This document shows, piece after piece, positions 5,349 to 31,069 of a DNA stretch of 45,676 nucleotides. Both the position numbers and the translations under genes were made by a program. The notes under the pieces are model-generated. The model was not told where the DNA came from, searched no databases, and was given only the letters and a program-made list of their open reading frames with translations. Location: NCBI RefSeq assembly GCF_030539555.1, contig NZ_JAUNXX010000010.1:1-45676 (forward strand), in the 5' to 3' direction. How positions within the stretch are numbered: the stretch's first letter is position 1; every line of letters begins with the position of its first letter. The DNA is from Methanobrevibacter sp. (lineage in GTDB: Archaea; Methanobacteriota; Methanobacteria; Methanobacteriales; Methanobacteriaceae).

Positions 5349-5681
5349 TGGATAACCTCCCTTGCTATTAACAGTAAATAATATTGCAAAGATGATGTCT
5401 TCTGAGCAATGATTTAAATTATTCTGGGGATATTTTTGTTAAAGTCAATATATAAGTCAGTTAAAGCAATTAATTTATGTCCTGGTGAATACAGTTTTTG
5501 GAAAATATTGCTCCAAATTAAATACATGAAATTATGATTTTCACCATAAAAATTACTGTTTTATCCAAAAAATACCTGATTTTTCTTGACAATGATTATA
5601 AAATTAATAATTCAATAACTTATTATACAACAAATTACAAATATGGCTATATAAAACAGATTTCAAAGAAGTGGTGCAGTT
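5349..5681. other. Divergent intergenic region
   Basis: This 333-bp AT-rich region separates the minus-strand membrane protein from the plus-strand symporter. It contains several TATA-like boxes (for example CAATATATAAG near 5449 and GGCTATATAAAAC near 5645). The latter lies about 35 bp before the symporter ATG and is its likely promoter. I see no RNA gene or clear hairpin. Confidence 0.4.
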
Positions 5682-7097
5682 ATGATTGACCTGCTAAGCA
5701 TATTGACTCAAATTGATGATTTCATGTACTTTCCTGTTCTCATTATAGTGATGGCAGCGGCAGGAATTTATTTTACAGTCCGAACAAGGGGAGTCCAGAT
5801 AAGGCTCTTTCCGGAATCCGTAAGGCTTCTTCTGGAACCTTCCGGTGATGACAATTCGGTATCGTCACTTCAGGCAATGCTTGTATCGACCGCTTCAAGG
5901 GTCGGAACCGGAAACATCATCGGAGTTTCAACAGCAATCTGTCTTGGAGGCCCCGGCGCATGCTTCTGGATGTGGATTATGTGTATCATAGGTGCATCTT
6001 CTGCATTCATGGAAAGTACTCTGGCTCAAATCTACAAGCGCAGGGATGAAAACGGCCAGTTCTATGGTGGACCGGCATATTATATCGAGGAGGCTCTTCA
6101 CTCCCACAAGATTGCGATTCTGTTCTGCATTTTCCTGATTGCAACATATGCTGTGGGATTCAATCTCTTGTGTTCATATAATCTCCAGTCAACATTCATG
6201 GAGTACTCATTCTATCATCCGTCAACCACTCCGCTCATAATAGGTCTGATTCTTGCAGCCATAACAGGATACTGCCTTTTGGGAGGGGGAAAAAGAATAG
6301 TCAAGGTTACAAGTACAGTTGTGCCTCTTATGGGTGTGTCATATGTCATTGTCGCTTTGATTGTTATTCTTTTCAATTATTCAAACATTCCGTCAATGTT
6401 TGCTCTGATTTTCCAGGACGCCTTCGACTTCAAGTCCATTGCCGGAGGGGTTCTGGGGTCATGTCTTGTATACGGTATTAAACGTGGACTTTTCTCAAAC
6501 GAGGCCGGAGTGGGTTCTGCTCCTAACGCTTCAGCATCAGCGGAAGTCACACACCCTGCAAAGCAGGGTCTTGTTCAGACACTGTCAGTTTACATCGACA
6601 CCCTTCTTTTGTGTACTGCAACCGCTCTCATGTGTCTTTCAACAGGTGTTGCAAGGGATGCGACAGTTTCTGGAGCGCCTTATGTGCAGAATGCGATTTC
6701 AACAGTTTTCGGTACTGCCGGACCGGTATTCATCACGGTTGCAATGGTGCTTTTTGCATTCACAACCCTTCTTGGAAATCTCTACTATGTGGACAATGCT
6801 CTGGCTTTCATGAACAACCGCAAAAAGCCATCAAAAAGATTCATGAACATCTTCTACATCTGTGCCGTGGTCATAATATTTACAGGCGCAATAATTCCGA
6901 TGGATGCGGCATGGGCTGCTGCCGATATTGCAATGGGCGGTATGACCCTAATCAACCTGCCTACATGTATGATTTTGGGAAAATCAGCAATTGACTGTCT
7001 TAAGGACTATGAACGTCAGAAAAGGGAAGGAAAAGACCCTGTATTTGAGGCTGCTTCAATAGGCCTCAACCTTGAGGAGCTCGACTGGTGGAAATGA
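5682..7097 (+). CDS. AGCS-family Na+:alanine/glycine symporter
   Basis: The 471-residue integral membrane protein belongs to the alanine/glycine:cation symporter (AGCS) family, which imports small amino acids with Na+. The N-terminal helix is followed by TRGVQIRLFPES, then the conserved substrate/Na+ site pattern STASRVGTGNIIGVSTAI and GGPGACFWMW around residues 69-106. The second repeat shows GLFSNEAGVGSAPNASASA near 267-285, the family hallmark. About eleven hydrophobic segments can be seen and the length is normal. A GGTG element lies 10 nt ahead of the ATG. It is monocistronic, ending before a hairpin terminator at 7273-7312. Confidence 0.93.
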   Translation: MIDLLSILTQIDDFMYFPVLIIVMAAAGIYFTVRTRGVQIRLFPESVRLLLEPSGDDNSVSSLQAMLVSTASRVGTGNIIGVSTAICLGGPGACFWMWIMCIIGASSAFMESTLAQIYKRRDENGQFYGGPAYYIEEALHSHKIAILFCIFLIATYAVGFNLLCSYNLQSTFMEYSFYHPSTTPLIIGLILAAITGYCLLGGGKRIVKVTSTVVPLMGVSYVIVALIVILFNYSNIPSMFALIFQDAFDFKSIAGGVLGSCLVYGIKRGLFSNEAGVGSAPNASASAEVTHPAKQGLVQTLSVYIDTLLLCTATALMCLSTGVARDATVSGAPYVQNAISTVFGTAGPVFITVAMVLFAFTTLLGNLYYVDNALAFMNNRKKPSKRFMNIFYICAVVIIFTGAIIPMDAAWAAADIAMGGMTLINLPTCMILGKSAIDCLKDYERQKREGKDPVFEAASIGLNLEELDWWK

Positions 7098-7145
7098 ATG
7101 GACTGTCAATTTGTTGGGGCTTTTGGTAATATTTGGTGTTTGTAG

Positions 7146-7280
7146 ATTAATGCAAAGGATATTGCCCAAAAGACATTGGGCAGAAATGTCATCAAAAAGC
7201 TCAAGAAAGTCAAAAAGTATGTTGCAGCCGCAACCTTCGCCAAGGGCACAGTAAAACAACCGTTACAGTCAAGTAGATGA
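7146..7280 (+). pseudogene. Small open frame or gene relic downstream of the symporter
   Basis: Between a stop at 7143-7145 and a TGA at 7278-7280 runs a frame of 44 codons with a coding-like basic composition (pattern NVIKKLKKVKKYVAAATFAK) but no ATG and no ribosome-binding site. It could be the tail of a broken gene or a small protein using a TTG start. There is no recognisable family. Confidence 0.25.
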
Positions 7281-7312
7281 TTCATATCATCTGCTTTTTT
7301 TGTTCTTTTTTT
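7273..7312 (+). terminator. Hairpin plus T-tract terminator
   Basis: The inverted repeat GTAGATGA / TCATCTGC (7273-7294, one G-T pair) is followed by interrupted T runs to 7312. It lies at the end of the symporter transcript. Confidence 0.6.
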
Positions 7313-7707
7313 TCAATAGTGGAAATGTTTATCCTATTTTTATAATGAAAATAAATATATTTTATTATCTTAATTTATAATCAAACTTATTTTTGTTGTT
7401 TAAATTCATTTTAAATAAAAAGTTGTCTGACTTTGTAAAATTGCTTTGAAAAATAACTGACTAATTTAAATATTAGGTCGAATAAATAATTTTGTAGTGG
7501 TGCGGTTATTTCCACATTAACTTAATAAATTGCCCTTAAAAAACCATTTATTTAATGATTTTCTATTTATTTTGAAAATAAAATCTTATATGGTTTTAGA
7601 ATTAATATTGCTTCATGATTAGAAAAGTTCTATGGTGAAAAACTGTCAGAACATATTAACGACATGAATATTGAAAATTTAAGATTGACAAATGTGAGGT
7701 ATCGAAA
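7313..7707. other. AT-rich gap with decayed coding sequence
   Basis: Mostly A and T, with no supported gene in the first 300 bp. From about 7615 a frame of 30 codons without a Met start (pattern EKFYGEKLSEHINDM then LRLTNVRYRK) runs into a stop that overlaps the ATG at 7708. This may be the end of an upstream gene whose start has been lost. The ribosome-binding site for 7708 (GAGGT, 7695-7699) lies within it. Confidence 0.3.
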
Positions 7708-7890
7708 ATGATTGCGGAATACACGGCATATAGAAAATATTTTTCTCCCGAAGAATGGAGAGTTCTTCGCAAGTGGGAACTGGATCCACACATGCCTTCC
7801 GGTAAAGACATGATGTACAATTTTTTAAGGTTGATTGGAGAAGATATTGAATATGATGAGGTCTTCAATTTTGAGGATGGCGAAAATTAA
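7708..7890 (+). CDS. Small acidic hypothetical protein
   Basis: A 60-residue protein with a good ribosome-binding site, GAGGT, 8 nt before its ATG. It reads as a compact helical protein with a tryptophan-rich core (SPEEWRVLRKWELDPHMPSG) and an acidic tail (EYDEVFNFEDGEN). The ATG overlaps the stop of a short upstream frame (ATGA), suggesting an ancient operon. I do not recognise the family. It sits in an otherwise gene-poor stretch, so it may be a remnant of a lost island. Confidence 0.45.
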   Translation: MIAEYTAYRKYFSPEEWRVLRKWELDPHMPSGKDMMYNFLRLIGEDIEYDEVFNFEDGEN

Positions 7891-8657
7891 TCTTGGACCA
7901 TTTCAAGTTGGATGCGGCACTAAATTTTCAACTTTTCGATTTGGGTTCTCAAATATTGAGGAGGTTCCCATTGAAGATGCTCTTTTCCTTCATAAAAACA
8001 TCAAAAGTGATTATTTGGATGGGGACGTGTCAAAATTTGCTGATGTAAATTTGTCCTTATTCAATTTTCAAAATCGCTTTTTTCATCCAATTTTGACCAT
8101 GCCCGTGAACCTGGGGCAAAAAATCATTTCTTATAATCACTTACTTTTTCACATCATTATCAAAAAAGAAAAGAAGTGTTTAAGTTATGTTTTCGAGATT
8201 ATCCTTGCGAATATTTTGGGCATAACATACGTTTCATTTATATGTTTAATCATCTAAAAATTGCTTTAACATTGTAAAATTGCTTTGAATTCATAATATT
8301 GTTTTGAAATTAAAGGAAAAGTATTTATTCAATGTGAATTTTTGTTCGTTTGTTGCGAACTTTAAATAGTAACAATAACTAAAAATAATAAATGGCATTA
8401 AAGTTTAATAAAACTTTTTTTTCAACGATAATCAAGTTGGAAAAAAGAAAAAACATTAACACTTGAAATTGCATGAACTGTGGCGACGACGGCACAATAA
8501 AATTTCCAAAAAAACTATATTTTTTTGGTTTGCAAATCCCCTTCCTCTATAGGATGGAGATTCAAATGTCTGTAAAGAGATAATAGGGTGGTGTTATTCA
8601 GTCTTTCGAATAACTCTGCAAATATTTCTTAATTGTTTTAATATGAATTAAATGACT
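7891..8657. other. Gene-poor region
   Basis: A frame of 140 codons (7835-8257) covers the first part but has no ribosome-binding site, shares 56 bp with the better-supported gene at 7708, and ends in a hydrophobic low-complexity tail. I do not accept it as a gene, although residues encoded by ~7880-8060 look mildly protein-like and could be a relic. From 8258 on the sequence is AT-rich apart from two patches of higher GC at 8476-8495 and 8531-8620 (see the candidate RNA). Confidence 0.3.
8525..8620 (+). ncRNA. Candidate structured RNA (weak)
   Basis: In very AT-rich surroundings this stretch has higher GC and two small stems: CCTTCCT/AGGATGG around 8540-8556 and a perfect 7-bp stem GTTATTC / GAATAAC (8593-8599 with 8608-8614, 8-nt loop). 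It lies 55-150 bp before the HEPN operon, so it could be a leader element or separate RNA. Strand is unknown; plus is assumed. No known RNA family was recognised. Confidence 0.2.
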
Positions 8658-8674
8658 GTTGGAGATTGATATTT

Positions 8675-8959
8675 ATGGAAAATAATAAAGAACAAGAAAT
8701 TTTACCAATTCAATTCATCAAAAAGGATTTTGACATCTCTGAAAAAATTGATGAAAACTTTTTGAATTCCATTAAAGAAGCCTTTGGGGGTGAAGTTTCT
8801 GTAATTAGTCTGGCTTTTTTGATATCTGATAAAGATGATGAAAATAAAAAAGAGATAATTTCATTTAATTATAGGAATGATAAGGAACAAAAAAATAATG
8901 AGGTTCTTGTAGATTTAAATAATCCAAATTCATTTGACAAGATTAAAAAAATATTTTAA
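8675..8959 (+). CDS. Small hypothetical protein, first gene of the HEPN operon
   Basis: A 94-residue protein of unknown family. I chose the ATG at 8675 because GGAGA (8661-8665) sits 9 nt ahead; an in-frame TTG at 8666 abuts that site and is unlikely. The N-terminal part is acidic, the centre (FGGEVSVISLAFLI) is a hydrophobic beta-like stretch, and Lys/Asn-rich strands follow. It is 22 nt ahead of the next gene. In size and position, ahead of a HEPN gene, it could be an antitoxin-like partner, but that is only a guess. Confidence 0.7.
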   Translation: MENNKEQEILPIQFIKKDFDISEKIDENFLNSIKEAFGGEVSVISLAFLISDKDDENKKEIISFNYRNDKEQKNNEVLVDLNNPNSFDKIKKIF

Positions 8960-8981
8960 ATTATGATTAAGAGGTAATTTC

Positions 8982-9419
8982 ATGAATTTTAACGAAACAA
9001 CCATGCCAATACAAAAAAATGTTAATGATTTTCATGAAAATGTTGTAAATCCATTTTTAGAAAAGAGTAGAACTGAATATCCATATTCCATTGTTCAATC
9101 AGATTCAAATATTGTTGATATTACTTTACTAAAAAGCTTCCCGAATAACAAATATGATTTTATGTATGAAGATGCTATAAAATCTATAGAAAAATTTCTT
9201 AAAAGGATTATTCCAAATTATGGTTTAAGCGAAATTAAATTCCATGAAAATGTTCATTTAGGTTTCAATCCCTCTTTTAGGATTAAAGTACCAAATAATG
9301 TTTCTTCTAAAGAATTAAATCAATATTGGGATGATATTTTTAAGGAGGTAACTGATTTTGCAGATTCTGAGAAAATAGGGTTCATTTTAGATGATTTGTC
9401 CATTATATTATGCAGGTGA
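8982..9419 (+). CDS. Hypothetical protein, second gene of the HEPN operon
   Basis: A 145-residue protein with a ribosome-binding site GAGGT before its ATG. It looks like a mixed alpha/beta single domain, with predicted helices at 10-30 and 60-75 and a C-terminal acidic stretch (DFADSEKIGFILDDL). No Cys cluster, membrane segment or known motif is visible. Its stop is 4 nt before the next ATG, so it is tightly coupled with the HEPN gene. Function unknown. Confidence 0.72.
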   Translation: MNFNETTMPIQKNVNDFHENVVNPFLEKSRTEYPYSIVQSDSNIVDITLLKSFPNNKYDFMYEDAIKSIEKFLKRIIPNYGLSEIKFHENVHLGFNPSFRIKVPNNVSSKELNQYWDDIFKEVTDFADSEKIGFILDDLSIILCR

Positions 9420-9423
9420 TAAT

Positions 9424-9867
9424 ATGGATGATTCATTTGATTTCGATTACTTGATACCCTTTTGTCAAAGTTTGTGGGATAATAAAGACATTTTAGTTAA
9501 TAGTAAATATCAATGTCTCTATAAAACTATTGTAAGTAGGGTTTATTATTCTGCTTTTCACCATGCAAAATCTTGGCTAGAGATTAATCATAACTTCAAA
9601 ACTCGTGAATTTAATTATGAAACAGGTAAAATGCGGAATATTGGTGGGTTAAGTGAACATGTTCAGGTTTTTAAAGAACTGAGGAAGGTGGCCAAAGATC
9701 AAAAATCCTTGAAACGTGAATTTTTCAGCGCTTCTTCTAAACTGGAAGATTTGTTCAACAATCGTGTTGATGCAGATTATGATGAAACTTCAATATTTGA
9801 AGAAATTGAAGTTACTGATGCAATTCAAAATGCAATATTCATTGTAAACCTATTGAAATTTAATTAA
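9424..9867 (+). CDS. HEPN-domain protein (UPF0332-like)
   Basis: The 147-residue protein (start at the ATG preceded by GGTGAT) matches the HEPN helical-bundle pattern. Residues 38-50 read SRVYYSAFHHAKS, the signature first core helix. Residues 110-120 read LFNNRVDADYD, the R..ADY motif seen in UPF0332-type HEPN proteins. A last helix (VTDAIQNAIFIVNLL) completes the bundle. R39 and H46 form an R-X6-H spacing, compatible with but not proof of a HEPN ribonuclease site. Many HEPN proteins are toxins or RNA-processing effectors paired with a small partner, and two small genes lie directly upstream in the same operon. Confidence 0.7.
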   Translation: MDDSFDFDYLIPFCQSLWDNKDILVNSKYQCLYKTIVSRVYYSAFHHAKSWLEINHNFKTREFNYETGKMRNIGGLSEHVQVFKELRKVAKDQKSLKREFFSASSKLEDLFNNRVDADYDETSIFEEIEVTDAIQNAIFIVNLLKFN

Positions 9868-10067
9868 CATGTTTAATTAAATTTTCACAATGCTAAATAA
9901 TACTCATAATGAAAATTTTTCAATTAATATTTCATCATATTATCCACATCTCTTTTTGACAGTTCCAAAAATCACTAAAATCTCAACTTTTAAATAATTT
10001 GAACAATATAAAATTAATGGGTTTTTAGAAGTTTTTGCTAAAAACATCAAGATTGGGAGAACATAAA

Positions 10068-11252
10068 ATGAGATGTGTTGGCACAGTAGTGCGTGGAATA
10101 AGGACACCTATTATTAAGGAAAATGACGATTTGGCCACAATTGTTGTGGATTCATTGATGAATGCAAAGGAAGCTGAAGGATTCGAGTTTAATGACAAGG
10201 ACATTGTCGCAATCACTGAGGCGGTTGTCGGAATTTCAGAGGGAAACTATGTCACCGTGGATGATGTGGCAGAAGATTTAACCAAGAAGTTCCCGTCAAA
10301 GGACATCGGGGTAGTTAACCCTATCTTAAGCAGAAACAGGTTTTCAATCATCCTCAAGGGTATTGCCAGAGCAATGGATAAAATTACACTTTTAAGCTCT
10401 TTTCCGGCTGATGAGGTTGGAAACGGAATTCTTGATGAGGACACATTGGAGAAAAGCGAATATAATCTGGGAAGCGTAATTTCCGAAGTGGAATATGCAG
10501 AAACCTTCGGCTCATGGATTCACCCGTTCACCGGAATCAACATGGTCGACTTTTACCGTGAACTCATCGAAAGCGAGGACTGTGAAGTCGAATTCGTATT
10601 TTCAAATGACGTGAAAACAATCCTTGACTACACCAAAGATGTTCTCACCTGTGACATCCACACAAGATTCAAGACAACAAAACTGCTTGAAAGCTTAGGT
10701 GCCAACGTATACGGGCTGCACCAGGTTTTAACCGAACCTATCGACGGGTCCGGATGCAACCCTGACTATGGTCTTTTAGGTTCAAACAAGGCAACCGAGG
10801 AAAAACTGAAACTCTTCCCAAAAACCGGAGACACACTTGTCCGTGAAGTTCAAAAAAGGCTGATTGAAAAAACCGGAAAACAGATTGAAGTGATGGTGTA
10901 TGGTGACGGCGCATTCAAGGATCCTGTCGGAAAGATCTGGGAACTTGCTGACCCTGTAGTATCACCGGCACACACCGACGGACTTATAGGATATCCTAAC
11001 GAAATCAAGCTTAAATACGTTTCAGACAACAAGTTCGCCGACTTGAAAGGCGACGAGCTGAAAGAAGCAATCAAGGAAGAAATCAGATGCAAGGATGAAA
11101 ACCTCACCGGTCAGATGATTACCGAAGGAACCACCCCAAGGGTACTGACAGACCTCATAGGTTCACTGTGTGACCTCACAAGCGGTTCCGGAGATAAGGG
11201 AACACCGGTCATATTCATTCAGGGATACTTCGACAATTTGGCAGACGACTGA
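10068..11252 (+). CDS. Coenzyme F420-0:L-glutamate ligase-family protein
   Basis: The 394-residue protein starts at the ATG preceded by GGGAG; an upstream in-frame ATG at 10035 lacks a site. The N-terminal half carries the F420-0 ligase-type pattern (VGTVVRGIRTPII, then DIVAITEAVVGISEGN at about 45-60), and a second conserved region PDYGLLGSNK near 235-245. CofE adds glutamates to F420-0 to give the F420 electron carrier. This version is longer than the ~250-residue CofE core, with a C-terminal extension rich in charged helices. It probably belongs to the long methanogen-specific relative of CofE, whose substrate may differ, so I withhold the gene symbol. Confidence 0.7.
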   Translation: MRCVGTVVRGIRTPIIKENDDLATIVVDSLMNAKEAEGFEFNDKDIVAITEAVVGISEGNYVTVDDVAEDLTKKFPSKDIGVVNPILSRNRFSIILKGIARAMDKITLLSSFPADEVGNGILDEDTLEKSEYNLGSVISEVEYAETFGSWIHPFTGINMVDFYRELIESEDCEVEFVFSNDVKTILDYTKDVLTCDIHTRFKTTKLLESLGANVYGLHQVLTEPIDGSGCNPDYGLLGSNKATEEKLKLFPKTGDTLVREVQKRLIEKTGKQIEVMVYGDGAFKDPVGKIWELADPVVSPAHTDGLIGYPNEIKLKYVSDNKFADLKGDELKEAIKEEIRCKDENLTGQMITEGTTPRVLTDLIGSLCDLTSGSGDKGTPVIFIQGYFDNLADD

Positions 11253-26974: not shown

Positions 26975-28828
26975 TTAGCACCAGGAGTTGTCTTTGTGAA
27001 TTCCGCCTTCACTTAATTTGTCCTTAACTTTCTTATAGAAGTATTTGGTGGATGTTCTAATCAGATAAACGTCCTTATCTGATTTTTTGAATTTGATTTC
27101 CTCTTCATATTCTGCCTCTTCGTTGAGCTGGCCGTCCATTACGAATACTGCAGTTTTTCCTTTCTTGAGCAGTTTGACAGTAATTTCACTGTTGTCGGAT
27201 ACGATAAACGGTCTTGCGCCAAGCTTATATGGGCAGATTGGGATGATAATGAATCCTCCGACCTTCGGATCGACAATCGGTCCTCCGGCAGACATTGCAT
27301 AAGCTGTTGAACCGCTTGGTGTTGAAACAATCAGTCCGTCTGCCCGGACTTCCTCGATAATCTCTCCGTCCACCTGAATTTCGAAGTGAAGCATTTTTGC
27401 AGGTTTCTCGGTCATTATCACCACTTCGTTCATTGCGGAGTAGTTGTGGTTTTCGTGTGAAACAACAAGTTTTGACCTTTGTTCCTTGTAGTAGTTTCCT
27501 TTTAAAACCTCTTCCAGGGCGCTGAATGTATCTTTTGCTTCTATTTCTGTTAAAAATCCAACGGTTCCCATGTTTACTCCGAATATTGGGGTTTCCGGTT
27601 TCATTTTTGACTGCGCTCTTAGGAGTGTTCCGTCTCCCCCCAAAACCACTGCCATGTCGCATTCGAAATCAAAGATTCCGCAGCTTATCTGCTGGTAGTC
27701 GATGTTGAAGTTGATGTTGTCAAGCAACGGTGCAATGTCGGGGTATTTCCTTTTGGTCTTTTCTATAATCCTGTCCAGTTTAGGATTTTCTTTTAAATCC
27801 TTGAGTTTTCTTGCAAGTCTGGTTTCGATAACGACTTCACGTCCGTTGGTTAGAAGGTAATCGATTATTTTTGCTGAAAAGAGTATGGAGCGGTTCTGGT
27901 CGATTCTTCCGACAATTCCGACTTTTCCTATAAAGTCAGTTTGATTGTTGTTTAGGGTATCAATCATCTGTTTGTGAAGGATCTTGTTGTTTGCCGCAAC
28001 TACGATGGTTCTTTCGTGGATGCTTAATTTGTTGTTCAGCTTTTCACCGTATTTGTCGGTAATGATTCCTCCGGCTTCTTCAAGAATCAGTTTGGATGCC
28101 GCAATATCGATTATTCTGCTTCCTCTAAGGTCGATGAATGCATCGTATCTTCCGCTTGCGACATAGGATATTTCAAGCACTACGCTTCCAAGCACTCTCA
28201 TTCTTCTTGCATTGTCGACGAGCTGTGATGCTTCGGAGGTTCCGCTTTTGGTGAATCCTCCTAGGGTGATGTTGCTGATGTTTACGATGTTGCTAGGATG
28301 GACTTCCTCATTGTTCAGCCAGCAGCCCTTTCCTTTTTCGGCTTCAAAGAAGTTTCCGTTTCCGAAGTTGCTGATGAAACCCAGTTCAACATCATTCAAT
28401 GTGGCAAGTCTTCCTTCGGGAACGTTTGCCACAGCTATTGAGATTCCAAAAGCCGGAATTTCCTTGATTGCATTGCTTGTTCCGTCAACGGGGTCAACCA
28501 GGAATATGAATCTTGGCTTTTCCTCATCATCCAGATCGTCACGTCTGAGTTCATGAGTCAGGCTAATGCTTCTTTTTGTTCCTTTACCAAGTTTCAATTC
28601 TCCAATTTCTTCGCTTACAATATATGACAGGACCGGAGCATTCTTTAAGATATTGATGACTTTTTCTTCGGCAACAATGTCGATGAGTGATGTTGGTGTG
28701 CCGTCGGCCCCCATTTTTATTTTTTCTCCGGATTCCGGTTTTCCGACATATGGCCTGATTGCTCGGCTTACTTCTTTTATTATTTCATAGCAAAGGTCTG
28801 TTGCGATTTTCTTATCTTGAGCATCCAT
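26975..28828 (-). CDS. Bifunctional NADP phosphatase/NAD kinase
   Basis: A 617-residue fusion seen in methanogens such as Methanocaldococcus jannaschii. Residues 1-280 are an inositol-monophosphatase-like domain: EEIGE at 73-77, DPVDGTSN at 112-119 and DIAASKLILEEAGG at 241-254 supply the metal ligands. Residues 300-617 are NAD kinase, with the diphosphate-binding GGDGT at 397-401 and TPSGSTAYAMSAGGPI later. Together they balance NAD and NADP. The start with GAGGG 6 nt upstream was chosen over one five codons earlier. It probably co-transcribes with cfbE, whose ATG follows directly. Confidence 0.93.
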   Translation of the reverse strand: MDAQDKKIATDLCYEIIKEVSRAIRPYVGKPESGEKIKMGADGTPTSLIDIVAEEKVINILKNAPVLSYIVSEEIGELKLGKGTKRSISLTHELRRDDLDDEEKPRFIFLVDPVDGTSNAIKEIPAFGISIAVANVPEGRLATLNDVELGFISNFGNGNFFEAEKGKGCWLNNEEVHPSNIVNISNITLGGFTKSGTSEASQLVDNARRMRVLGSVVLEISYVASGRYDAFIDLRGSRIIDIAASKLILEEAGGIITDKYGEKLNNKLSIHERTIVVAANNKILHKQMIDTLNNNQTDFIGKVGIVGRIDQNRSILFSAKIIDYLLTNGREVVIETRLARKLKDLKENPKLDRIIEKTKRKYPDIAPLLDNINFNIDYQQISCGIFDFECDMAVVLGGDGTLLRAQSKMKPETPIFGVNMGTVGFLTEIEAKDTFSALEEVLKGNYYKEQRSKLVVSHENHNYSAMNEVVIMTEKPAKMLHFEIQVDGEIIEEVRADGLIVSTPSGSTAYAMSAGGPIVDPKVGGFIIIPICPYKLGARPFIVSDNSEITVKLLKKGKTAVFVMDGQLNEEAEYEEEIKFKKSDKDVYLIRTSTKYFYKKVKDKLSEGGIHKDNSWC

Positions 28829-28904
28829 TTTATCCCTCGGCAATATTATCTTTTTGATTGGCTGCCTTAGACAGCTTCGATGATTTAGATTTTATAGTTT
28901 ACAG

Positions 28905-29205
28905 TTCACGTTTTTTCCATCATGTATCTGACCATGTGTGAGCTTCATTTTTCCAGGTCTTTAAGATGTCTGTCTTATCAGGTAGTCTTTACCTGCAACC
29001 TGACGTGTCTTCAATAGCCGCTTTAACAACTGTCATGTCACATCACCTGATTTTTTGAGTGATTTGTGATAAAACGCTGTTGGCCGTTGCCTTCAGATAA
29101 TTGTATCCACTTCACGTCTTTAATTCCGTCATCTGCAAGTGCATTATCGAAAGCGCTTAGTTTTGCCGGTCATTAATCTTTTCGGCTGAAAGCGTCTATT
29201 TTCAT
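28905..29205 (-). pseudogene. Decayed pyruvoyl-dependent arginine decarboxylase (pdaD-like)
   Basis: Read on the minus strand, pieces in different frames resemble the short pyruvoyl arginine decarboxylase. From 29156 downward a frame reads SAFDNALADDGIKDVKWIQL, like the family's NAFDxALxxAGIxxxxLI segment; around 28995-29021 comes AAIEDTSGC; and near 28912-28941 SHMVRYMMEK, like the C-terminal helix. Multiple stops and frame changes separate them, and the serine cleavage region is gone. PdaD makes agmatine, and agmatinase (30203) plus eIF5A are close by, which supports the reading. Identification by memory of the family pattern only. Confidence 0.45.
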
Positions 29206-29287
29206 TTTTCTTACTTTTAATTTTTAGTACTTCTCTCTAATAAAAATTTATTAATGATTACGTCAAAAATAAATTTAGGTGTACCTA

Positions 29288-29641
29288 ATGATTTTCAATA
29301 AGTATCTTTCAATTTTCTTATCAGCATGCCTTTTCATGCTGCTGATGCTTTTAACATCGTCCGTTGTTGTGGTGTTCTTTAACGGAGGGTCTGTTCCATA
29401 TATTGGAATAGCATTCGTTGTAATTTACTATTTTATCGCACGAGCATTCTACACATATCTGAGAAATGACGATGAGTATAAAAACAACAGAAAAATCACA
29501 AGCGACAAAAAAGATGAAAGCTACATCACCAAAGGCCGAAGCGATACGAAAAAGGTCTTTCTTGTAGTTTGGGTTTTGATAATCCTGCTTCTCTCGGCAG
29601 TTTCACTCTGGCTTTATTCATTTAATAATGGTCTGCTTTAA
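29288..29641 (+). CDS. Small hypothetical membrane protein
   Basis: A 117-residue protein with hydrophobic segments at about 5-30, 34-55 and 92-113 around a charged loop (NDDEYKNNRKITSDKKDES). I chose the ATG at 29288 with AGGTG 6 nt ahead; a GTG at 29279 is inside that site. No family recognised. It lies between the decayed gene and eIF5A. Confidence 0.65.
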   Translation: MIFNKYLSIFLSACLFMLLMLLTSSVVVVFFNGGSVPYIGIAFVVIYYFIARAFYTYLRNDDEYKNNRKITSDKKDESYITKGRSDTKKVFLVVWVLIILLLSAVSLWLYSFNNGLL

Positions 29642-29769: not shown

Positions 29770-30168
29770 ATGTCAACAAAAGTTGTAGAAATTAAAACAT
29801 TAAAAGTTGGAAAATATATTGTTTTAGGCGGAGAAGCTTGTAAAATTATCAGTTATACTACTTCATCTCCTGGTAAACACGGTGCAGCAAAAGCAAGAAT
29901 TGAAGCTGTAGGCGTATTCGATAACCAAAAAAGAAGTCTCGTAAAACCAGTGGACAACAAAGTAGATATCCCTATTATCGACAAAAGATTAGGTCAAGTT
30001 ATATCTATCCAAGGCGACAACGTTCAAATAATGGATATGGAAAACTACGAAACCATCGATTTACCAATGCCTGAAGACTTGAAAAACGACATCGTCGAAG
30101 GTATTGAAGTTGAATACATCGTCGCTTTAGGAAACATGAAAATAATGAGAACTAGAGGATCTGCTTAA
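29770..30168 (+). CDS. eif5A: Translation factor aIF5A (hypusine-containing)
   Basis: The 132-residue factor helps ribosomes through hard peptide stretches such as polyproline. The N-terminal SH3-like domain carries the hypusination loop [11 protein letters not shown] with the modified Lys at K36, and the C-terminal OB fold spans about 70-132. Length fits archaeal eIF5A. A clear GGAGG site and an upstream TATA box imply strong expression. Hypusine needs polyamine; the agmatinase gene follows 34 bp downstream, a sensible pairing. Confidence 0.97.
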
Positions 30169-30202: not shown

Positions 30203-31069
30203 ATGCTTTTAAATACTTATGAACCGTGGAAATTTGCATTTTCTGCGGAAAATGATGAAATCAAAGAAAATTCATATGGGATAATCGGAGTTCCCTTTGA
30301 CAGCACTACTTCTTATCACTCCGGTGCACGTTTAGGACCAATCGTTGTAAGAGAAGCATCCTTTGGTTTTGAAAAATACAATACTGTTTTTAACAAGGAC
30401 CTGACAGCCACCTTTTACGATTTCGGCGACGTCAATGTTGTTCCCGGAAACTGTCAGAAAACCTGTGAAATCGTCAGGGAAACTGTTGATGAACTTTTAA
30501 GCTTAAACTTAAAGCCAATAATAATCGGAGGCGAACATTCAGCATCCATAGGGGCAATCGCCGCATTAATCGAAAAGTACGAAAAGCTTACTGTGATACA
30601 CTTGGACGCCCACAGGGACCTGGCCTTCGAATTCATAGGCGAGAAATACTCTCATGCAACAGTAATGAGGCGGGCTCATGAAGCGGGAGCTAACCTTGTA
30701 CAGATTGGAATAAGATCATCATCCCTTGAGGAAGAGGAATTCATAAAATCAACTTACAATATCCAGACATTCAAGAACAGGGATGTCCACAAGCACATGG
30801 ACGCAATCGAATATTACCTGACAAATATCGATGGCCCAATCTATATTTCGATAGACATGGATGTTTTCAATCCGGCAATCGCTCCAAGAGTTGGAAATCC
30901 GACACCTGGAGGACTTTTCGTTCATGATATTGAGACAATCCTTGAAACATTGTGTCATAAAAACATTGTGGGATTGGATGTTGTTGAAACCGCCAGCAAC
31001 AAGCTGGGCGAGGCCACAGCAGTCGTCGCATCAAAAATCATTTATGATTTCCTGACTTTGATAGAATAA
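30203..31069 (+). CDS. speB: Agmatinase
   Basis: The 288-residue ureohydrolase splits agmatine into putrescine and urea. Mn ligands are visible: H112 in GGEHSAS, D135/H137/D139 in HLDAHRDL and D218/D220 in SIDMD. Family signatures and length are complete. It is 34 bp after eIF5A. Arginase or another ureohydrolase role is possible but less likely in a methanogen with polyamine-linked neighbours. A possible broken source of agmatine lies at 28905-29205. Confidence 0.92.
   Translation: MLLNTYEPWKFAFSAENDEIKENSYGIIGVPFDSTTSYHSGARLGPIVVREASFGFEKYNTVFNKDLTATFYDFGDVNVVPGNCQKTCEIVRETVDELLSLNLKPIIIGGEHSASIGAIAALIEKYEKLTVIHLDAHRDLAFEFIGEKYSHATVMRRAHEAGANLVQIGIRSSSLEEEEFIKSTYNIQTFKNRDVHKHMDAIEYYLTNIDGPIYISIDMDVFNPAIAPRVGNPTPGGLFVHDIETILETLCHKNIVGLDVVETASNKLGEATAVVASKIIYDFLTLIE

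Follow-up and report, generated by a model that had tools for sequence, protein, structure and literature searches.

Where does a Methanobrevibacter cell obtain its agmatine when the arginine decarboxylase gene beside eIF5A and agmatinase has decayed? From what is known of its family, pyruvoyl-dependent arginine decarboxylase (PdaD) makes the agmatine used by agmatinase. In archaea agmatine is thought to be needed for the modification of aIF5A and for the agmatidine of tRNA-Ile, so that losing the sole gene for its synthesis would be puzzling. In the window analysed here, a stretch of 45,676 nucleotides from a gut-dwelling methanogen, Methanobrevibacter sp. (contig NZ_JAUNXX010000010.1), the original prediction recognised a decayed pdaD from peptide pieces on the minus strand, held that its loss implied another source of agmatine, such as a second pdaD or uptake, and proposed a translated search of the region as well as a search of the remaining genome.

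The native pdaD site in the window

The genome of the window (G000), a draft assembly of 148 contigs, was analysed within a sample of 67 Methanobrevibacter genomes, most of them MAGs. A PdaD match was obtained in 61 of these 67, and an NADK gene likewise in 61 of 67. Throughout the genus pdaD is located between eIF5A/agmatinase and the gene of a bifunctional NADP phosphatase/NAD kinase, an order kept in other Methanobacteriales. An intact pdaD occupies this native site in 57 of the 61 PdaD-bearing genomes and is found elsewhere in G000, G006, G068 and G076. The site in the window comprises the following features:

26975 to 28828, minus strand: bifunctional NADP phosphatase/NAD kinase (IMPase and NADK), next downstream of the pdaD site (NF010678, 725.9 bits)
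28830 to 29205, minus strand: decayed native pdaD, ATG to stop (DNA alignment, nhmmer, stops in all frames)
28912 to 28935, minus strand: remnant piece MVRYMMEK (exact match)
28995 to 29021, minus strand: remnant piece AAIEDTSGC (exact match)
29081 to 29096, minus strand, approximate place: about 50 missing nt including the Ser-Ser codons (alignment gaps; chain ends of 1mt1_A and 1mt1_B)
29122 to 29157, minus strand: remnant piece SAFDNALADDGI (exact match)
29279 to 29641, plus strand: ORF120, small membrane protein between the pdaD site and eIF5A (no family match above cut-off)
29770 to 30168, plus strand: eIF5A (aIF5A; TIGR00037, 173.5 bits)
30203 to 31069, plus strand: agmatinase (TIGR01230, 230.6 bits, cut-off 174.3)

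The decayed gene can be aligned on the minus strand from its ATG (29205) to its stop (ending at 28830), and the genes flanking it (eIF5A, agmatinase and IMPase/NAD kinase) are intact. A local DNA alignment with the pdaD of the relative G001 gave 280 identical bases among 361 aligned, with a score of 200.5, whereas 300 shuffles reached at most 86.5. An independent nhmmer search, with a profile built from the DNA of 61 Methanobrevibacter pdaD genes, recovered the remnant as two pieces (E 3.2e-17 and 7.6e-11), and a tblastn search with G000's own intact PdaD as query matched over the first 37 residues (E 1.3e-6). An open reading frame for the whole protein is absent: the remnant measures 376 nt compared to 147-155 codons in intact copies, each of the three minus-strand frames contains 7-12 stops, and the longest open run amounts to 43 residues. 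According to the alignment gaps, about 50 nt are absent between about 29096 and 29081, the codons of the Ser-Ser self-cleavage site included; cleavage falls on profile positions 37-39, where the beta chain of a solved structure (PDB 1mt1_A) ends at 37 and the alpha chain (1mt1_B) starts at 39. The decayed pdaD of the original prediction was thereby corroborated. The peptides SAFDNALADDGI, AAIEDTSGC and MVRYMMEK were all recovered on the minus strand in two frames, the translated search against PdaD was significant, and the similarity extends further than had been reported. The remnant scores higher when aligned with the native pdaD of the closest relatives (200.5 for G001, 193 for G024, 173 for G007) than with the intact copy of its own genome (138.5).

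Two observations concern the neighbours of the site. ORF120 was found in many, not all, genomes of the genus and is more variable than the genes around it, and the IMPase portion of the NADP phosphatase/NAD kinase recurs as a second, stand-alone copy at G061:C5:141465-142343 and at G085:C88:1858-2733.

A displaced pdaD and the joint loss of native ORF175

Searching the remaining genome for a second pdaD yielded an intact copy, G000:C108:3787-4254, which encodes the sole intact PdaD found in G000 (TIGR00286 152.9 bits, cut-off 106.95; PF01862 105.1, cut-off 22.7). The self-cleavage Ser of PdaD becomes the pyruvoyl group, and the C108 protein keeps the Ser-Ser pair (S37 S38), which is invariant in A2. 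Compared with the solved pyruvoyl-dependent arginine decarboxylases (PDB 1n2m, 1mt1, 2qqd), it is a member of the same family by TIGR00286 with Ser-Ser kept, but begins some 15 residues downstream of the start of the solved PdaD chain, whereas the window copy is dead. Displaced pdaD genes show dN/dS values of 0.12-0.25, close to the native median of 0.13, and hence are under purifying selection. The contig C108 is 7.7 kb long and could in principle be misbinned, though no other intact pdaD was found in G000. As judged from its sequence, this intact and conserved PdaD means that agmatine synthesis is not lost in G000, and a loss of the capacity was rejected. The expectation of another agmatine source thus held insofar as a second pdaD is present; uptake need not be invoked. 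A second, distant PdaD was also observed in G067 (8% contamination) beside its native copy (L130, G067:C150, 4404-4829, minus strand), and is 29% identical to the C108 protein.

The gene of a membrane protein of 175 residues, termed ORF175, starts 28 nt behind the C108 pdaD. It is likewise directly downstream of the displaced pdaD in G006, G068 and G076 (for G076 the pdaD coordinates derive from sequence searches, the ORF list having given an overlapping frame there). Usually ORF175 is found at another place in the genus, directly behind deoxyhypusine synthase (DHS), namely in 57 of 62 DHS-bearing genomes; this native copy is absent from G000, G006, G068, G076 and G075. The gap from DHS to the next gene spans 563-587 nt in 29 measured loci keeping ORF175, as against 153 nt in G000, 110 in G006, 90 in G068 and 107 in G076, and 201 nt with a remnant in G075. 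With G075 left out of the scoring (its assembly has neither pdaD nor NADK), native ORF175 is lost in four of four genomes with displaced pdaD and in none of the 53 that have a native pdaD and in which DHS is assembled (Fisher p 2.5e-6, a value that ignores shared descent and is explained in part by the linkage of the incoming genes).

The decay of the native pdaD is not confined to the window. Remnants were also detected by nhmmer in G076 (E 1.1e-59) and G006 (E 5.4e-15), and the native site of G068 holds at most a doubtful stub (E 0.03 and 0.53). Traces of the accessory cassette occur in 13 of the 67 genomes, and among them the opposite outcome is found as well: G035, G020, G067 and G025 kept the native pdaD, and their cassette pdaD is broken. 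In G035 both cassette genes are broken and the native genes intact; a single deletion in each of G020 and G067 has joined the beginning of the cassette pdaD to the tail of ORF175; G025 retains a mere remnant of the cassette pdaD, with both of its ORF175 copies intact.

Probable horizontal spread of the pair and other explanations

Our best explanation, to which we assign a probability of about 0.87, is that the window contains the dead ancestral pdaD and that an arriving segment with pdaD and ORF175 made both native genes redundant, so that both were lost. An accessory segment spreading among Methanobrevibacter lineages would have brought in an intact pdaD immediately followed by ORF175. With the incoming pair present, neither the resident pdaD next to eIF5A nor the resident ORF175 next to DHS would have been needed any longer, and both would have disappeared, loss presumably following acquisition. 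PdaD would now be supplied from C108 only, by an enzyme that is probably active. This succession starts from what was observed directly, i.e., the remnant, the intact displaced pair, both native losses, the grouping of the displaced pairs in one clade, their dS values, and the genomes in which the reverse took place.

Two readings dispense with horizontal transfer, and the phylogenetic data bear on both. The PdaD tree was built from 61 rows (without the distant second PdaD of G067 and the broken cassette copy of G035), the ORF175 tree from 41 rows (without G012, the partial G027, the broken cassette copy and the native copy of G035; length filter), and the concatenated tree from the 34 genomes with both genes in the single-gene sets. 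According to the first reading, pdaD was duplicated or translocated within the genome in each lineage and the original was lost afterwards. This is compatible with the tests on PdaD alone, in which placement with the host was not rejected (AU p 0.076, 0.247 and 0.0525), and with accessory neighbours that differ between genomes. However, the four displaced PdaD form one clade in the PdaD tree, with a support of 92/93 only and with hosts that are scattered in the NADK tree, and in the concatenated PdaD and ORF175 tree the four displaced pairs form one clade with support of 100/100. Here AU tests reject host placement for two groups, the G000 pair (p 0.00014) and the G068 and G076 pairs (p 0.00023). 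Moreover, dS between displaced pdaD of different hosts is 0.29-0.83 compared to a native median of 1.55, values below 1 being reached by 7.8% of 1596 native pairs. Duplication within each genome is consequently regarded as very improbable.

The same low estimate applies to an ancient duplication, by which the ancestor of the genus possessed two pdaD and two ORF175 genes that were differentially lost. The reciprocal losses would fit, as native genes are gone from G000, G006, G068 and G076 and the cassette pdaD is broken in G035, G020, G067 and G025. Yet copies of that age should have diverged like their hosts, and the displaced copies are clearly less diverged, with cassette traces in only a minority of the genomes (13/67, as above). 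At equal host distance all six displaced PdaD pairs (6/6) lie above the native 95th percentile, and agreement at four-fold sites reaches 61-89% in displaced pdaD as against native means of 45-53%; base composition alone would give about 29-42%. For ORF175 the excess is weaker than for PdaD: only half of the cassette pairs (14 of 28) surpass the native 95th percentile in protein identity, while all 28 lie above the native mean in four-fold identity. Eight accessory copies group into a single clade of the ORF175 tree (100/100), and the copies of G061 and G075 make up a second one. On the basis of identity, concatenated AU tests and dS, in-genome duplication and ancient paralogy were both rejected as the main account. 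One clade, conflict with the host phylogeny and low dS together argue for a horizontal spread of the displaced pairs.

Still less probable is a cell relying on the uptake of agmatine or on a different arginine decarboxylase. Nothing was found in favour of either, G000 possesses an intact PdaD, and PdaD is present in all 91 of 91 genomes of the class with at least 90% completeness and at most 5% contamination. Finally, an assembly or sequencing error that broke an intact gene, which the fragmented draft might suggest, is least probable of all, given that the 376 nt contain numerous substitutions and several distinct gaps, that the neighbours on both sides are intact and that the same loss is found independently in G076 and G006.

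The horizontally spread pair is accompanied by recurrent cassette neighbours, i.e., an MFS transporter, paired TetR regulators and a CstA-family protein, and flank families include MFS, TetR, CstA and DUF4013. A family scan of part of the flanking ORFs revealed no integrase in the flanks of the pair. The CstA and other neighbours appear highly identical between cassette regions, a suggestive observation in which cassette regions were compared among themselves alone. That the second pdaD is a horizontally shared relative paired with ORF175, and that the native ORF175 is lost too, had been missed by the original prediction.

The window pseudogene is thus an ordinary case of xenologous gene displacement: as known for such displacements, the incoming ortholog persists and the resident decays to a remnant, with both outcomes in sister genomes. 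The resident remnant lies at the syntenic ancestral site, and the incoming copy is discordant with its host by concatenated tree, AU tests and dS, PdaD alone giving AU p values of 0.0525-0.247. What differs here is that a single linked pair took the place of two unlinked residents, and did so in four genomes belonging to at least three host lineages. It is this coordinated displacement, together with the lead on ORF175, that came as a surprise.

ORF175 and a possible link to the agmatine/deoxyhypusine pathway

ORF175 of G000 matched none of the Pfam and NCBIfam families, distant members were likewise without a match above cut-off, and no transporter match was recognised. Its predicted model is all helical (mean pLDDT 93.6). 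Comparisons with solved structures gave a best E of 0.72 with Foldseek and a best Z of 6.8 with VIA-align (rmsd 5.5, 120 aligned), where the VIA-align rows (ESX-3, aquaporins, PTS) score below what helical bundles attain through their arrangement alone; a sequence search of solved structures returned a single match (E 0.41). Residues D21, D25, K70, D72, H76, D110, E111, Y132 and R133 are invariant among seven members from four families.

Of the 151 genomes in the class, 138 contain ORF175. Among the 75 copies outside the genus, 51 immediately follow DHS in the same orientation, and another 11 adjoin it within 300 nt but on the other strand. In the Methanopyrus-like genomes G057 and G201, the genes for pdaD, eIF5A, agmatinase, DHS, a relative of ORF175, PyrF and IMPase/NADK constitute one cluster:

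L315 (G057), 5352 to 10875: Methanopyrus-like cluster
L316 (G201), 5350 to 10875: Methanopyrus-like cluster

Based on this single cluster, the two Methanobrevibacter loci may be the two halves of one ancient cluster. In Euryarchaeota the genes of aIF5A and agmatinase are clustered, Haloferax cannot do without an agmatinase-like gene, and agmatine may be a substrate of DHS and may feed the modification of archaeal aIF5A, as described in PMC5178350. The window shares the eIF5A-agmatinase pair of the aIF5A/agmatinase/DHS clustering set out there, with the difference that in the Methanopyrus-like genomes pdaD, NADK and ORF175 also belong to the cluster; a term search of that paper revealed no mention of PdaD by name, Methanobrevibacter or a membrane protein.

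The joint displacement hints that PdaD and ORF175 work together. ORF175 was found behind all five displaced pdaD genes detected (5/5; G000, G006, G068, G076 and G153), of which the pair in G153 (L299, G153:C7, 5260-6325, minus strand) is of its own genus's type, lies away from DHS and apparently arose independently. On the other hand, ORF175 also moves without pdaD. Methanobrevibacter-like copies were encountered away from DHS in G136, G097 and G098, which represent two other genera and in which no displaced pdaD was seen:

L286 (G136:C36): Methanobrevibacter-like ORF175 outside the genus
L287 (G097:C65): Methanobrevibacter-like ORF175 outside the genus
L288 (G098:C66): Methanobrevibacter-like ORF175 outside the genus

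The site behind DHS in G136 is without ORF175, and in G032, G025, G078 and G061 an accessory ORF175 is kept alongside the native one. Both the occurrence of ORF175 alone and its doubling count against a strict coupling with pdaD. Distant relatives in other archaea are mostly located away from DHS, which was contained in the fetched stretch in four of 20 cases (G057, G201, G211 and G221). Four of these relatives, L319, L320, L321 and L324 (G165, G167, G169 and G170), have a conserved neighbourhood without DHS, on account of which the wider ORF175 family may have other roles. It is therefore put forward only tentatively, as a possibility we hold to be rather less probable than its opposite, that ORF175 is a membrane component of the agmatine/deoxyhypusine pathway and that PdaD and ORF175 function best as a matched pair, so that both unlinked residents were displaced together. 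Its candidate role would perhaps be the handling of agmatine or a related polyamine, or the anchoring of DHS.

A published description of the pdaD-ORF175 pair was not found among the titles and abstract beginnings of the top-listed papers, a search whose coverage lies largely outside subscription journals. Raised pseudogene numbers have been reported for gut Methanobacteriota, and that study yielded no mention of agmatine, arginine decarboxylase or deoxyhypusine in a term search (PMC13135261). An arginine decarboxylase is likewise inactivated in some strains of Chlamydia, where the aaxABC cluster encodes arginine:agmatine exchange; the loss is reported there as pseudogene formation (PMC2720952), whereas here a second intact pdaD takes over and ORF175 is without a transporter match.

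The loss of the sole gene for agmatine synthesis would be a puzzle, and it is solved here in that the gene was replaced. Among related species the locus provides a clean example of both outcomes, the native copy kept or the cassette copy kept. At the same time, the replacement singles out the uncharacterised membrane protein ORF175 as a possible partner for both PdaD and DHS, and hence as a direct test case for the incompletely understood agmatine/deoxyhypusine pathway of archaea.
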